Assembly (NCBI GenBank): GCA_017396945.1 | Contig: JAFQKI010000002.1 | Coordinates: forward strand, 50,531-114,530 | Reading direction: 5' to 3' | DNA length: 64,000 nt | Origin: Muribaculaceae bacterium | GTDB lineage: Bacteria > Bacteroidota > Bacteroidia > Bacteroidales > Muribaculaceae | In this document: piece after piece, positions 34,804-38,905 of the stretch | How positions within the stretch are numbered: the first letter of the stretch is position 1 | Layout of the letters: every line of letters begins with the position of its first letter | The notes under the pieces: generated by a model | Database searches by the model: none | What the model saw: only the letters and a program-made list of their open reading frames with translations | What the model was told of the DNA's origin: nothing | Made by a program: the position numbers and the translations under genes

Positions 34804-34833
34804 TTGTAAATTAAAAACAAATTACTACTTTTG
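34804..34833 (+). promoter_or_regulatory. Promoter of the aromatic amino acid operon
   Basis: TTG (34804-34806), 19 bases, TACTTTTG (34826-34833). Transcription would begin near 34840, about 14 bases before the leader peptide ATG. Confidence 0.7.
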
Positions 34834-34853
34834 CAACACAATAGTAAAAAGCT

Positions 34854-34931
34854 ATGACTCGATTTTACGCATATTATTATTTCTTTTATTTTTATTTTGC
34901 AAAGAATAAAAACGGGATTTTGTGTGCGTAA
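34854..34931 (+). CDS. Phe/Tyr leader peptide (attenuation control)
   Basis: A 25-codon open frame from ATG 34854 to TAA 34929-34931. Residues 1-15 read MTRFYAYYYFFYFYF and residues 16-25 AKNKNGILCA. Eleven of the twelve codons 4-15 encode Phe (5) or Tyr (6). A ribosome short of charged tRNA-Phe or tRNA-Tyr would stall here. The last codons contain RNA segment 1 (34912-34923), which pairs with segment 2 (34960-34971) and so prevents the terminator. A promoter lies just upstream and the genes for Phe and Tyr synthesis follow. Homology to a named leader is not claimed; the call rests on sequence logic. Confidence 0.88.
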   Translation: MTRFYAYYYFFYFYFAKNKNGILCA

Positions 34932-34971
34932 CATATAAAGTTGAATGATTAACAAAAATATAAAATCCCGT
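34912..34971 (+). promoter_or_regulatory. Antiterminator hairpin of the aromatic operon leader
   Basis: Segment 1, ACGGGATTTTGT at 34912-34923, can pair over 12 bases (one G-U) with ATAAAATCCCGT at 34960-34971. Segment 2 is also the left arm of the terminator, so the two structures exclude each other. A ribosome held at the aromatic codons leaves segment 1 free; one that reaches the leader stop covers it. Confidence 0.8.
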
Positions 34972-34993
34972 ATTACAAGATACGGGATTTTTT
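34962..34993 (+). terminator. Attenuator (intrinsic terminator) of the aromatic operon
   Basis: A perfect 12-bp stem, AAAATCCCGTAT (34962-34973) with ATACGGGATTTT (34980-34991), a 6-base loop and a run of six T ending at 34993. It ends 18 bases before the pheA ATG, with no gene between it and the leader, so it serves to stop transcription before the operon. Confidence 0.9.
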
Positions 34994-35011
34994 ATTAAAC
35001 AGATTTATGAT

Positions 35012-35860
35012 ATGAACAAACGAGTAACAATTCAAGGTGTAGCCGGATGCTTCCACGATGCAGCAGCCCGCGGATACTTTAAAGATGAGACAATCGACAT
35101 TATAGAATGTGACTCATTCCCCGAATTATTTGATACACTATCAACCGACGCATCTCTAATGGGAATAGTTGCCATTGAAAACACCATAGCCGGGAGCATA
35201 CTTTCAAATCACGAATTGTTGCGCCAAAGCAACCTCCAGATTATTGGGGAATACAAAATGCGCATTTCTCATGTACTTGCCGCATTAGAGGGGCAAACTA
35301 TTGACACCCTTACCGAAGTAAACTCCCACCCAATGGCATTAATGCAATGTGAACAATATCTGCGTCGTCACCCAAATCTCAAAATGATTGAGAAATTTGA
35401 CACTGCCGGTTCCGCCAAGGAGATAGCAGAGCAAAAATTAATGAGACACGCAGCGGTATGTGGTGAATACGCCGCCAACCTTTATGGACTAAATATCCTT
35501 GAACGAGGCATCGAAACCAACAAACGCAATTTCACACGTTTTCTCATTATTGCCGACCCATTGACCGCCGGCGAGATGCGTCCAAGAGATGAGTATATCA
35601 ATAAAGCGTCAATCGAGTTTACCCTACCCCACACTCATGGCGCTCTATCTAAAGTTTTAACAATTTTCTCTTTTTATGATATTAATCTATCCAAGATACA
35701 ATCGTTGCCGATTGTAGGACGCGAGTGGGAATATCGTTTCTATGTCGATTTGACTTTTGACAGCTATGTGCGCTATCATCAATCTATCGATGCTGTGCGC
35801 CCCCTTATCAAAGACTTCAAAATACTTGGTGAATATATAGAATGTAAATATGAAATTTGA
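35012..35860 (+). CDS. pheA: Prephenate dehydratase with ACT domain
   Basis: A 282-residue enzyme converting prephenate to phenylpyruvate in phenylalanine synthesis. The catalytic domain (1-about 185) begins VTIQGVAGCFHDAAA, has IVAIENTIAGSI near 50, and contains the conserved Thr-Arg-Phe in KRNFTRFLII near 172. A C-terminal ACT domain follows with HGALSKVLTIFSFYDINLSK near 210. The Phe-binding ESRP motif of E. coli-type P-proteins reads QSLP here. There is no fused chorismate mutase, which is instead on the DAHP synthase downstream. First gene of the attenuated operon; it overlaps the next gene by 11 bases. Confidence 0.92.
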   Translation: MNKRVTIQGVAGCFHDAAARGYFKDETIDIIECDSFPELFDTLSTDASLMGIVAIENTIAGSILSNHELLRQSNLQIIGEYKMRISHVLAALEGQTIDTLTEVNSHPMALMQCEQYLRRHPNLKMIEKFDTAGSAKEIAEQKLMRHAAVCGEYAANLYGLNILERGIETNKRNFTRFLIIADPLTAGEMRPRDEYINKASIEFTLPHTHGALSKVLTIFSFYDINLSKIQSLPIVGREWEYRFYVDLTFDSYVRYHQSIDAVRPLIKDFKILGEYIECKYEI

Positions 35861-37028
35861 ACTAAACATAACTCCGGCTCAGCGAGTGTCTGAGATACAA
35901 GAATACTATTTCTCAAAAAAATTGCGTGAAGTAGCACAACTCAACGCTCAAGGGGCCGACATAATATCTCTTGGCATCGGAGGTCCCGACCGCCAACCGG
36001 GACAAGATGTAATCGACACACTTTGTGCCGAAGCCAACGTCGCAAGCAATCATAGCTACCAACCCTATGTTGGGATACCACAACTACGCCAAGCATTTGC
36101 CCAATGGTATAAACAATGGTATGGCGTGGAACTTAATGCCGACAAAGAGATACAACCGCTCATTGGCTCCAAAGAGGGGATTTTACATGTTTCTCTCGCA
36201 TTTCTTAATCCTGGTGACGGAGTACTTGTACCCAATCCCGGATATCCCACCTATACATCGGTGAGCCGTTTAGCTCAAGCCGAGATATTTACCTATGACC
36301 TCACAGAGGAAAATGGTTGGTATCCCGACTTTGACGCACTCGAACGCCTCCCTCTCGACCGCATAAAACTCATGTGGATTAACTATCCTCACATGCCAAC
36401 AGGTACACCTGCCACTCTTGAACTATTTCAAAAAATCATAGACTTCGGTCGTCGCCACAACATTGTTATCGCTCATGACAATCCCTATAGTTTTATTTTA
36501 AACGACAACCCTATGAGTCTATTGCAAATCGAAGGAGCTCGCGACATCGCTATCGAGATGAACTCCCTCAGCAAGTCTCACAACATGGCAGGCTGGCGCG
36601 TAGGAATGTTGGCGTCCAATCCTACATTCATAAATTGGATACTCAAAGTAAAATCCAATATCGACTCAGGTCAATTCAAGCCACTGATGCTTGCAGCAGT
36701 TAAAGCTCTAAATGCCGATGCAGAATGGTATCAGACCCTCAACGAGGTATATCGCTCACGCCGAGCTGTCGCTGAAAAAATTATGCTTGCACTTGGATGC
36801 ACATTCGACCCCAGCCAACGTGGCCTGTTCCTTTGGGGGCGCATCCCCGATGATGTCCCATCGAGCGAGGCTCTTGCCGATAACATACTTTACAACGCAA
36901 GAGTATTTATCACTCCCGGATTTATATTTGGCAGTAACGGCAACAGATATGTACGCATTTCACTATGTGCCACAGAAGAGAATATGCGCCGTGCACTTGA
37001 TCGCATAAACAACATGAATAATAACTAA
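35850..37028 (+). CDS. Class I/II PLP-dependent aminotransferase, probably aromatic
   Basis: A 392-residue fold type I aminotransferase. It has SYQPYVGIPQLRQAFAQWY near 71, GSKEGILHVSLAFLNPGD near 109, NYPHMPTGTPAT near 175, the PLP lysine in EMNSLSKSHNMAGWRVGM near 234 and the C-terminal RYVRISLC with the carboxylate-binding Arg. Its place between prephenate dehydratase and DAHP synthase, overlapping pheA by 11 bases, suggests it transaminates phenylpyruvate and 4-hydroxyphenylpyruvate to Phe and Tyr. Prephenate as substrate cannot be excluded. Confidence 0.85.
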   Translation: MKFELNITPAQRVSEIQEYYFSKKLREVAQLNAQGADIISLGIGGPDRQPGQDVIDTLCAEANVASNHSYQPYVGIPQLRQAFAQWYKQWYGVELNADKEIQPLIGSKEGILHVSLAFLNPGDGVLVPNPGYPTYTSVSRLAQAEIFTYDLTEENGWYPDFDALERLPLDRIKLMWINYPHMPTGTPATLELFQKIIDFGRRHNIVIAHDNPYSFILNDNPMSLLQIEGARDIAIEMNSLSKSHNMAGWRVGMLASNPTFINWILKVKSNIDSGQFKPLMLAAVKALNADAEWYQTLNEVYRSRRAVAEKIMLALGCTFDPSQRGLFLWGRIPDDVPSSEALADNILYNARVFITPGFIFGSNGNRYVRISLCATEENMRRALDRINNMNNN

Positions 37029-37045
37029 AAAACATATATAACATT

Positions 37046-38119
37046 ATGGAAAATCTACAACCCATAGCACTTGAAGGCATCAACCCTCAGAAGCCATTGA
37101 TTATCGCCGGTCCATGTAGCGCAGAGACCGAGGAACAAGTAATACGCACCGCTACCGAACTTGCAGCCAACGGCATAAAGATATTCCGTGCCGGGATATG
37201 GAAACCTCGCACCAAGCCCGGAGGTTTTGAAGGCGTGGGCGTTGAAGGTCTCCAATGGATGAAAAAAGTAAAAGAGCTCACCGGCATGTACACCGGCACT
37301 GAAGTCGCCACCAAGCAACACGTTGACGCGGCTCTTGAAGCAGGCATCGACATTCTTTGGATTGGGGCTCGCACATCAGCCAACCCCTTTGCTATGCAGG
37401 AAATAGCCAACGCACTCCAAGAAGCCGGTGCCGACGTACCTGTTTTGGTGAAAAACCCCGTTAACCCCGACCTTGAATTGTGGATTGGAGCAATGCAACG
37501 CATCTACAACGCCGGGATACGTCGTATCGGTGCTATACACCGCGGGTTCAGTGCCTATGGCAAACACCTCTATCGCAACCTACCTCAATGGCATATACCC
37601 ATCGAATTGCGTCGCCGCATGCCCAACCTCCCTATCATTTGCGATCCAAGCCACATCGGAGGGAAACGAGAACTCGTGGCTTCAATCTCCCAACAAGCTC
37701 TTGATATGGGGTTCGATGGTCTTATCATAGAAAGTCACTGTGATCCCGATTGCGCATGGAGCGACAAGAGCCAACAAGTTACTCCTGATGTGCTTAACTA
37801 CATACTCAACACCCTTGTACATCGCGAAGAAACCAGTTCAACCGAAAGCCTCACACTACTTCGTCAACAAATTGACACCATCGACAACGAATTGCTTGAA
37901 ACACTCAACAAACGCATGCGTGTATCTCGAGAAATCGGTCTATACAAAAAAGAACATCGTATGCCGGTCGTTCAAGCGGGTCGTTATGGCGACATCATGC
38001 AATCGCGCGTGAAACTCGCCGAAGAAATGGGCATGAGTGGAGACTTCATGAAAGCAGTACTCACTGCCATTCACGAGGAAAGTGTGCGTCAACAAATTGA
38101 GATTTTAAACCGCCGATAA
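37046..38119 (+). CDS. Bifunctional DAHP synthase / chorismate mutase type II
   Basis: A 357-residue fusion. Residues 1 to about 255 are a short type I-beta 3-deoxy-D-arabino-heptulosonate 7-phosphate synthase (PLIIAGPCSAETEEQV, FRAGIWKPRTKPGGFEG, AIHRGFSAYG, CDPSHIGGKR). After a short linker, residues 265-357 are an AroQ chorismate mutase (LLRQQIDTIDNELLETLNKR, REIGLYKKEH). This is the first and a later step of aromatic synthesis in one chain. The Porphyromonas gingivalis homologue has the same order, and its mutase domain also serves as an allosteric domain responding to prephenate. Third gene of the attenuated operon. Confidence 0.92.
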   Translation: MENLQPIALEGINPQKPLIIAGPCSAETEEQVIRTATELAANGIKIFRAGIWKPRTKPGGFEGVGVEGLQWMKKVKELTGMYTGTEVATKQHVDAALEAGIDILWIGARTSANPFAMQEIANALQEAGADVPVLVKNPVNPDLELWIGAMQRIYNAGIRRIGAIHRGFSAYGKHLYRNLPQWHIPIELRRRMPNLPIICDPSHIGGKRELVASISQQALDMGFDGLIIESHCDPDCAWSDKSQQVTPDVLNYILNTLVHREETSSTESLTLLRQQIDTIDNELLETLNKRMRVSREIGLYKKEHRMPVVQAGRYGDIMQSRVKLAEEMGMSGDFMKAVLTAIHEESVRQQIEILNRR

Positions 38120-38131
38120 TTTCGTTTGGAC

Positions 38132-38905
38132 ATGAAAATTCTTATTATCGGAGCCGGCAAAATGGGGTCGTTCTTCTGCGACATCCTCTCTTTCAACCAC
38201 GATGTGGCGATATATGACACCGACCCCCAACGTTTGCGTTTTACATTTAACTGCCGCCGTTTTTCAGCACTTGAAGAGATTGACGAGTTTGCTCCCGACC
38301 TTGTGATAAATGCAGCAACAGTAAAATACACAATCGAAGCATTTCGCACCGTTATTCCACATCTTCCCTCAAGATGTATCCTCAGCGATATCGCATCGGT
38401 AAAAACCGGCTTGCCAGAGTTCTATGCCGAGTGTGGACACCCATTTGTCTCAACCCACCCCATGTTTGGACCTACATTTGCCTCGCTAAGTAACCTCAGT
38501 AATGAGAACGCCATTATCATTGCCGAGAGCGACCACCTTGGTAAAGTGTTTTTTAAAGACCTCTACAACAGTCTGCACCTTCACATCGAGGAATACACCT
38601 TTACCCAACATGATGAGACTATCGCCTACTCGCTATCAATCCCGTTTGCCTCAACTCTTGTGTTTGCCTCAATCATGAAACATCAAGATGCTCCGGGAAC
38701 AACATTCAAGCGTCACATGGCTATAGCTCATGGATTGATGTCGGAAGATGACTTCCTATTAAGCGAAATCCTCTTCAATCCAAACACTCCTGCCCAACTT
38801 GAACGGATACAACAACAACTTTCAGAACTTCAATCAATAGTCAACTCCCATGACTCTGAAGCGATGAAAGCCTATCTTGCCCGCGTAAGAGAAAATTTAA
38901 AATAA
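38132..38905 (+). CDS. tyrA: Prephenate dehydrogenase
   Basis: A 257-residue NAD(P)-dependent enzyme that oxidises prephenate to 4-hydroxyphenylpyruvate for tyrosine synthesis. It opens with KILIIGAGKMGSFFCDIL, a Rossmann GxGxxG, followed by SDIASVKTGLPEF near 88 and HPFVSTHPMFGPTFAS near 105, the conserved catalytic His region. The C-terminal helical dimerisation domain ends near 255 with no ACT domain. I start at ATG 38132; a TTG two codons earlier is in frame. Last gene of the operon, with 164 bases of convergent spacer after it. Confidence 0.88.
   Translation: MKILIIGAGKMGSFFCDILSFNHDVAIYDTDPQRLRFTFNCRRFSALEEIDEFAPDLVINAATVKYTIEAFRTVIPHLPSRCILSDIASVKTGLPEFYAECGHPFVSTHPMFGPTFASLSNLSNENAIIIAESDHLGKVFFKDLYNSLHLHIEEYTFTQHDETIAYSLSIPFASTLVFASIMKHQDAPGTTFKRHMAIAHGLMSEDDFLLSEILFNPNTPAQLERIQQQLSELQSIVNSHDSEAMKAYLARVRENLK

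Follow-up and report, generated by a model that had tools for sequence, protein, structure and literature searches.

The pheL-pheA attenuator of Escherichia coli places a Phe-rich leader peptide without Tyr, an antiterminator and a terminator before pheA, and the leaders thrL (Thr/Ile) and ilvL (Ile/Val/Leu) show that a single peptide can read more than one amino acid. Among Bacteroidota, whose ribosomes mostly work without Shine-Dalgarno sequences, the Bacteroid-trp RNA has a leader-peptide role for trp genes. Here we analyse the DNA upstream of pheA in a stretch of 64,000 nucleotides from a Muribaculaceae bacterium (assembly GCA_017396945.1, contig JAFQKI010000002.1, positions 50,531 to 114,530 of the forward strand), which we call the window. 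We conclude, with a probability of roughly 0.93, that the element found there works as a ribosome-mediated attenuator of transcription, responding to charged tRNA-Phe and tRNA-Tyr, and that it governs an operon of pheA, an aminotransferase gene, a DAHP synthase/chorismate mutase gene and tyrA.

Like pheL-pheA (Rfam RF01859), the window combines a Phe-coding leader, an antiterminator and a terminator ahead of pheA; unlike it, the leader mixes Phe and Tyr codons and precedes an operon for both amino acids. It is multivalent in the manner of thrL and ilvL, although the amino acids, operons and phylum differ. A 2021 study of Flavobacterium psychrophilum reported a conserved 5' element before pheA, together with hints, in general terms, that leader peptides attenuate amino-acid operons; unlike the account given here, the portions of that study available as excerpts say nothing of a peptide, a pairing, the amino acids concerned, an occurrence outside the family or a connection with operon content (PMC9723704).

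Leader codons follow operon content

Our strongest evidence for an attenuator, drawn from comparing sequences, is that the codon content of the leader tracks the content of the operon behind it. An order sample of 157 genomes contained 69 with pheA at E 1e-15, and 60 loci were analysed (those in G000, G023, G042, G044, G050, G402, G417, G432 and G454 lie outside the 60). The codon counts leave out L322, which is cut, and seven loci with no called leader (L280, L314, L318, L320, L321, L325 and L326), of which L321 has a leader visible by eye. The presence of tyrA was judged within about 3.5 kb downstream. Where pheA is accompanied by tyrA, 34 leaders contain 166 Phe and 130 Tyr codons, with a median Tyr share of 0.44, and three further loci are leaderless by rule. 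The median is 0.35 in 14 leaders followed by DAHP synthase or aminotransferase with no tyrA found (one more locus has no leader). Before pheA alone, four leaders from four families hold 26 Phe codons and one Tyr codon; three of the seven such loci have no leader.

Units with tyrA and without pheA have the highest Tyr share, with a median of 0.67 across 15 units from 13 families. Thirteen of these 15 exceed the joint-operon median, and the leaders in G341 and G450 are pure Tyr. The units were drawn from covariance-model matches and a TyrA search, with a leader in 15 of the 18 looked at (L334 has none; L335 and L339 are cut by contig ends). The set omits a fragment in G451, and also G333, G417 and G432:C27, because their next gene falls beyond a contig end. 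Rank tests on Tyr share, which take loci as independent and use no tree, place tyrA-only units above joint operons (P = 2.9e-5) and joint operons above pheA-only loci (P = 7.6e-4). Two genomes (G054 and G329) carry both halves of a split operon: pheA with a Phe-only run, and a tyrA unit with a mixed run that is slightly richer in Tyr.

As the codons change with the products of the operon, the switch very probably serves to gauge both Phe and Tyr in the cell. A preliminary description of this DNA had proposed that a single peptide responds to two amino acids, in keeping with what its operon makes, and the shift of the Phe:Tyr mix with the downstream genes supports that proposal. We think it probable that one ancestral Bacteroidia attenuator stayed with the Phe/Tyr pathway while selection rewrote its codons as operons split or pheA was lost, giving Phe-only leaders before pheA alone, mixed leaders before joint operons and Tyr-rich to pure Tyr leaders before tyrA units, with some lineages stacking two in series.

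Two complete attenuators stand in tandem at 14 loci (L232, L238, L264, L266, L272-L274, L301, L316, L319, L044, L084, L333 and L336), by a check that requires a leader, a terminator and a separate segment 2-3 pairing in each copy. Of these, six are among 51 order-sample loci passing the check, and eight were picked from elsewhere; a tandem at L269 (G402) stands outside the count. The copies mostly mix Phe and Tyr, and both are pure Tyr in G341. A division of tandem leaders into separate Phe and Tyr sensors is therefore unsupported. If the tandems do function, two serial attenuators would multiply their read-through probabilities and sharpen the response.

A Trp codon lies within or directly after the Phe/Tyr run in 17 of 87 leaders (L039, L050 and L083 among them). 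The operon also feeds the common pathway, and thus Trp may be read too.

The predicted switch and its pairings

The leader frame in the window (Table 1) translates to MTRFYAYYYFFYFYFAKNKNGILCA followed by a stop, with Ala6 the sole residue other than Phe or Tyr in codons 4-15. No other ATG frame of 8-60 codons on either strand of the window has at least eight Phe/Tyr within ten codons. From the end of the last aromatic codon, at 34898, it is 13 nt to the antiterminator arm. Upstream, the -7 box TACTTTTG (34826-34833) agrees on direct reading with the Bacteroidota-type TAnnTTTG, a consensus taken from the excerpted text of PMC9723704. Segment 3 goes to either segment 2 or segment 4, which makes the antiterminator (14 pairs, -17.0 kcal/mol, z -3.9) and the terminator (-18.3 kcal/mol, z -6.2) mutually exclusive. 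The whole leader folds with a z of -5.2, and 0 of 200 shuffles were equally low.

Most of this anatomy had been anticipated in the preliminary description. Its promoter, its 25-codon frame with all but one of codons 4-15 aromatic, its spacing of about 14 bases and its 12-bp terminator with six T sharing the antiterminator arm agree with what we read and folded. Its antiterminator (34912-34923 with 34960-34971) was right as a pairing and too short at 12 pairs. It had also called the attenuator complete; the parts it listed are present, and it overlooked a further helix, 1:2, between codons 4-7 and the 3' end of the frame. It had suggested testing the stems for covariance, and compensatory changes are found in all three helices (1:2, 2:3 and 3:4).

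Covariation was counted on 34 Bacteroidales sequences out of 40 loci, omitting L003 (a near copy), L005, L017 and L036 (cut by contig ends) and L022 and L023 (no leader). The structures come from the window itself, so that the counts lean somewhat towards them, and the shuffles take no account of relatedness. The terminator 3:4 is paired in 88.4% of cells, with nine of 12 pairs changed on both sides (as many in 0/500 shuffles), and the antiterminator 2:3 in 79.8%, with nine of 14 changed on both sides (6/500). For the ten pairs of the 1:2 helix, 79.4% of cells are paired, and slid versions drop to 21.5-51.5%. This helix has 25 cells changed on both sides against a shuffle mean of 11.8, with 0/500 shuffles reaching as many; one of its pairs is C-G in 14 sequences, U-A in 10 and U-G in 3.

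Segments 2 and 3 pair at -10.8 kcal/mol or better in 87/87 leaders (84 called by rule and three located by eye), with a median of -17.6 kcal/mol against a shuffle mean of -8.3. Pairing is also specific to each leader: the mean energy is -18.0 with a leader's own partner and -11.6 with partners from other species, and the own partner falls in the best tenth for 63/87.

Translation of the frame, ribosome stalling, coupling of transcription to translation and the size of the response are parts of the mechanism that we infer. If Phe or Tyr were short, the leading ribosome would stall in the Phe/Tyr run, leaving segment 2 free to pair with segment 3, and RNA polymerase would read through. With both amino acids plentiful, the ribosome would reach the stop and cover segment 2, segments 3 and 4 would pair, and transcription would end before pheA. 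In the absence of a ribosome, segment 2 may be sequestered by the 1:2 helix. In a model that masks the bases under the ribosome, the median antiterminator probability across the 87 leaders is 1.00 averaged over ribosome positions on the Phe/Tyr codons and 0.00 with the ribosome at the stop, and the probability is higher stalled than at the stop in 82/87. The window gives 1.00 and 0.00 for these positions and 0.94 without a ribosome. These probabilities support a switch between stalled and finished ribosomes rather than a strong ribosome-free block, and the 1:2 helix as such a block is unsupported by the thermodynamic model.

The window appears to hold four of the features expected of an attenuator of this kind: a short predicted frame rich in codons for the products of the operon, a predicted intrinsic terminator before the first structural gene, a putative antiterminator that excludes the terminator and covaries, and a predicted 1:2 helix overlapping the leader frame, whose competition with 2:3 is weak in the masking model.

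Table 1. Predicted features of the attenuator and operon, in window coordinates
Feature	Position	Strand	Description	Basis
Promoter	34804..34833	+	TTG at 34804-34806; -7 box TACTTTTG at 34826-34833	Sequence read; consensus TAnnTTTG
Leader peptide frame	34854..34931	+	25 codons plus TAA; 11 of codons 4-15 Phe/Tyr	
Segment 1	34865..34874	+	Within leader codons 4-7; partner 34922-34931	Fold and covariation
Segment 2, antiterminator 5' arm	34912..34925	+	Partner 34958-34971	Fold energy, pairing across leaders, covariation
1:2 helix, 3' arm	34922..34931	+	Overlaps end of segment 2 and stop codon	Fold and covariation
Segment 3, antiterminator use	34958..34971	+		Fold energy, pairing across leaders, covariation
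Intrinsic terminator	34962..34993	+	34962-34973 with 34980-34991; six T at 34988-34993	Fold energy, covariation
pheA, prephenate dehydratase	35012..35860	+		Best NCBIfam matches prephenate dehydratases, 185 bits, below curated cut-off of 219
Class I aminotransferase (LL-diaminopimelate aminotransferase-like)	35850..37028	+		NCBIfam match below curated cut-offs
DAHP synthase with C-terminal chorismate mutase domain	37046..38119	+		NCBIfam match below curated cut-offs
tyrA, prephenate dehydrogenase-like	38126..38905	+		Best match 62 bits, cut-off 310

All four structural genes fall below the NCBIfam curated cut-offs, and their names therefore rest on best match and gene order. The order pheA-aminotransferase-DAHP synthase/chorismate mutase-tyrA is kept in 65 of 80 named loci.

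Distribution in and beyond the class

In a set of 61 genomes, the host genome included, pheA was found in 40. Counting as usable those loci with at least 300 bases upstream of pheA (37 with the window), the element is present in 34/36 relatives from the order, or 35/37 with the window (32 by rule and three by eye). A phylum sample contained pheA in 215/247 genomes, and the best 69 of 214 (own genome excluded) were looked at, leaving out class members with weaker pheA matches (G072, G155, G250 and G270). Among these best 69 of 214, all 52 members of the same class or order that were looked at, of 56 with pheA, have the element. Forty-eight of the 52 were called by rule; L090 has a non-ATG start, and in L066, L079 and L081 the element stands at the operon head. 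At these last three loci pheA follows an aroA-like sequence, and the element lies about 3.5 kb further up, before DAHP synthase, where it was located with covariance model R1. One unit read through (L237, G171:C6) shows the attenuator heading a DAHP synthase-aroB-aroA-pheA operon, with aroB and aroA named by eye. Outside the class the element is present in 4/17 (L047, L048, L078 and L087) and absent in 13 of the best 69. Model R1 is less sensitive at distance, matching 51/198 phylum genomes at E 0.01. The preliminary description had made its proposal depend on the leader frame and pairing being present in close relatives, and both recur through class Bacteroidia with compensatory changes.

Among the 80 named loci, 77 have at least 200 bases upstream. 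The rule calls the element in 58/77, including Bacteroides fragilis, B. xylanisolvens and Phocaeicola vulgatus ATCC 8482; six more have a Phe/Tyr leader that fails the terminator rule, and L118 and L186 have leaders with non-ATG starts. At L022, a relative within the order, a promoter-like site and the terminator are retained and the leader frame is absent; its terminator may thus act unregulated.

Covariance-model matches away from pheA were of several kinds. On reading, L231 and L232 are real elements, while those at L233-L236 and L239 (E 6e-5 to 2e-3) were rejected as plain terminators. The match at L240 (G126:C121), in a genome outside the class, is a His leader, MHWHHIITFELAGG, followed by frames that by eye resemble hisG and hisD. 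In the host genome itself, a His-run leader, MRSNFTHSHHHHTTF, followed by a terminator-like hairpin lies upstream of hisG (L368, G000:C2). A His-rich leader precedes hisG at 15/29 loci under a loose rule, and by eye at five of seven others, L368 included. Trp-rich leaders with terminators precede trpE at 6/15 loci under a loose rule (L371, L373, L374, L376, L377 and L383), five of the six with WWW.

Alternative readings and significance

The alternative that fares best, and which we still consider very unlikely, is a regulated terminator run by a ligand-binding RNA, an RNA-binding protein or a T-box, with the short frame incidental. A terminator and an antiterminator by themselves do not identify the sensor. 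However, a search of the window with Rfam models, T-box models among them, yields nothing at gathering score; Phe_leader (RF01859) scores 16.1 bits there against a cut-off of 55, and 20 relatives gave only Flavo-1 RNA and tRNA at gathering score, both away from the element. Sub-threshold matches to ohsC and Thr_leader were set aside, as they rest on the terminator stem. The aromatic enrichment is also limited to one frame: across 87 homologous runs the Phe/Tyr fraction is 0.83 in frame versus 0.26 and 0.27 in the other two, and all four codons are used (TTT 279, TAT 215, TAC 110 and TTC 96), which points to selection on amino acids beyond T-rich DNA. Additionally, a ligand or protein sensor has no need of leader codons that track operon content.

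Less probable again is a nascent peptide that arrests the ribosome in response to free Phe or Tyr, much as TnaC responds to Trp, instead of to starved codons. So aromatic a peptide could contact the exit tunnel, but the order, length and C-terminus of the leader peptides vary widely, and a peptide that arrests when its amino acids abound would regulate biosynthetic genes in the opposite direction.

The corrected detector called leader and terminator together in 84 of 106 upstream regions and in 4/1818 overlapping tiles of the window, all four being the attenuator at 34804-34993. A plain terminator of the upstream gene beside a chance T-rich frame, the least credible alternative and one already contradicted by conservation, draws on the ease with which such DNA gives Phe/Tyr codons (a leader alone in 12/1060 dinucleotide shuffles of the 106 regions), but leader plus terminator arose in 0/1060, a promoter-like site sits between the upstream gene and the leader, the helices carry compensatory changes and the element recurs in 52/52 further class or order members looked at.

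Several observations weigh against the attenuator we propose. Transcription-translation coupling in these bacteria is assumed. In the masking model, ribosome-free leaders have a median antiterminator probability of 0.96, and in 18/87 leaders it still exceeds 0.5 once the ribosome has reached the stop, the model being a simple one. Six of the ten 1:2 pairs are doubly changed, which 127/500 shuffles reach, and the 2:3 covariation score is equalled by 30/500. Two tyrA-only units (G339 and G371) have slightly more Phe than Tyr. No leader was found at L022 or L023 (2/36 relatives), the latter without any part of the element, nor in 11/77 named loci (L112, L113, L123, L125, L126, L133, L134, L147, L148, L152 and L187), and L280 and L314 have none despite a full or near-full operon. 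Counting in favour of the attenuator are the His-run leader before hisG in the same genome, and the placement of the element at the operon head where pheA sits behind aro genes.

Comparable candidates have been listed elsewhere. Upstream open reading frames coding Phe or Phe/Tyr before shikimate or aromatic genes appear in the excerpted parts of two papers (Fig. 6 legend of PMC6429828; uORFC-13-1 in PMC8632094), the latter candidate, unlike the window leader, coming from Acholeplasma and environmental sequences according to that excerpt. The main text of PMC6429828 uses the string 'Bacteroid' a single time, for an endosymbiont's partner, and that of PMC8632094 not at all. A map of B. thetaiotaomicron mentions small open reading frames reminiscent of leader peptides; pheA and phenylalanine are absent from its main text, and the strings 'attenuat', 'leader peptide' and pheA are missing from its 2024 sequel. 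No word starting with 'Bacteroid' stands in the main text of Naville and Gautheret 2010. Bacteroid-trp (RF01692) is listed as a cis-regulatory motif of Bacteroidetes in the excerpted text of Weinberg 2010 (PMC2864571). It has no match in the window or the host genome; across 41 genomes searched it matches two, one over the cut-off, and both matches share the strand of the gene for anthranilate synthase component I, lying 1.3 and 1.5 kb upstream of it. In the open-access literature searched, which did not take in subscription papers and supplements, we met no account of a Phe/Tyr leader from Bacteroidota. The preliminary description was thus right to call such a leader little described, and incomplete in that the F. 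psychrophilum study, in the part excerpted (PMC9723704), had already flagged a 5' element at pheA.

On these comparisons, the mechanism of a two-amino-acid, ribosome-mediated attenuator is known, the class-wide instance appears to be new, and the variation among leaders offers an unusually clear sign that the codons report the products of the operon. The element adds to aromatic amino acid control in dominant gut and environmental bacteria a putative class-wide switch with no Rfam match at cut-off. Split operons amount to a natural experiment in which leader codons are tied to what the genes make, and the double attenuators offer a circuit design open to testing. Should the switch work, it would provide direct evidence that Bacteroidota couple transcription to translation; if attenuators with rewritten codons do operate across Bacteroidia, transcription and translation must be coupled there.
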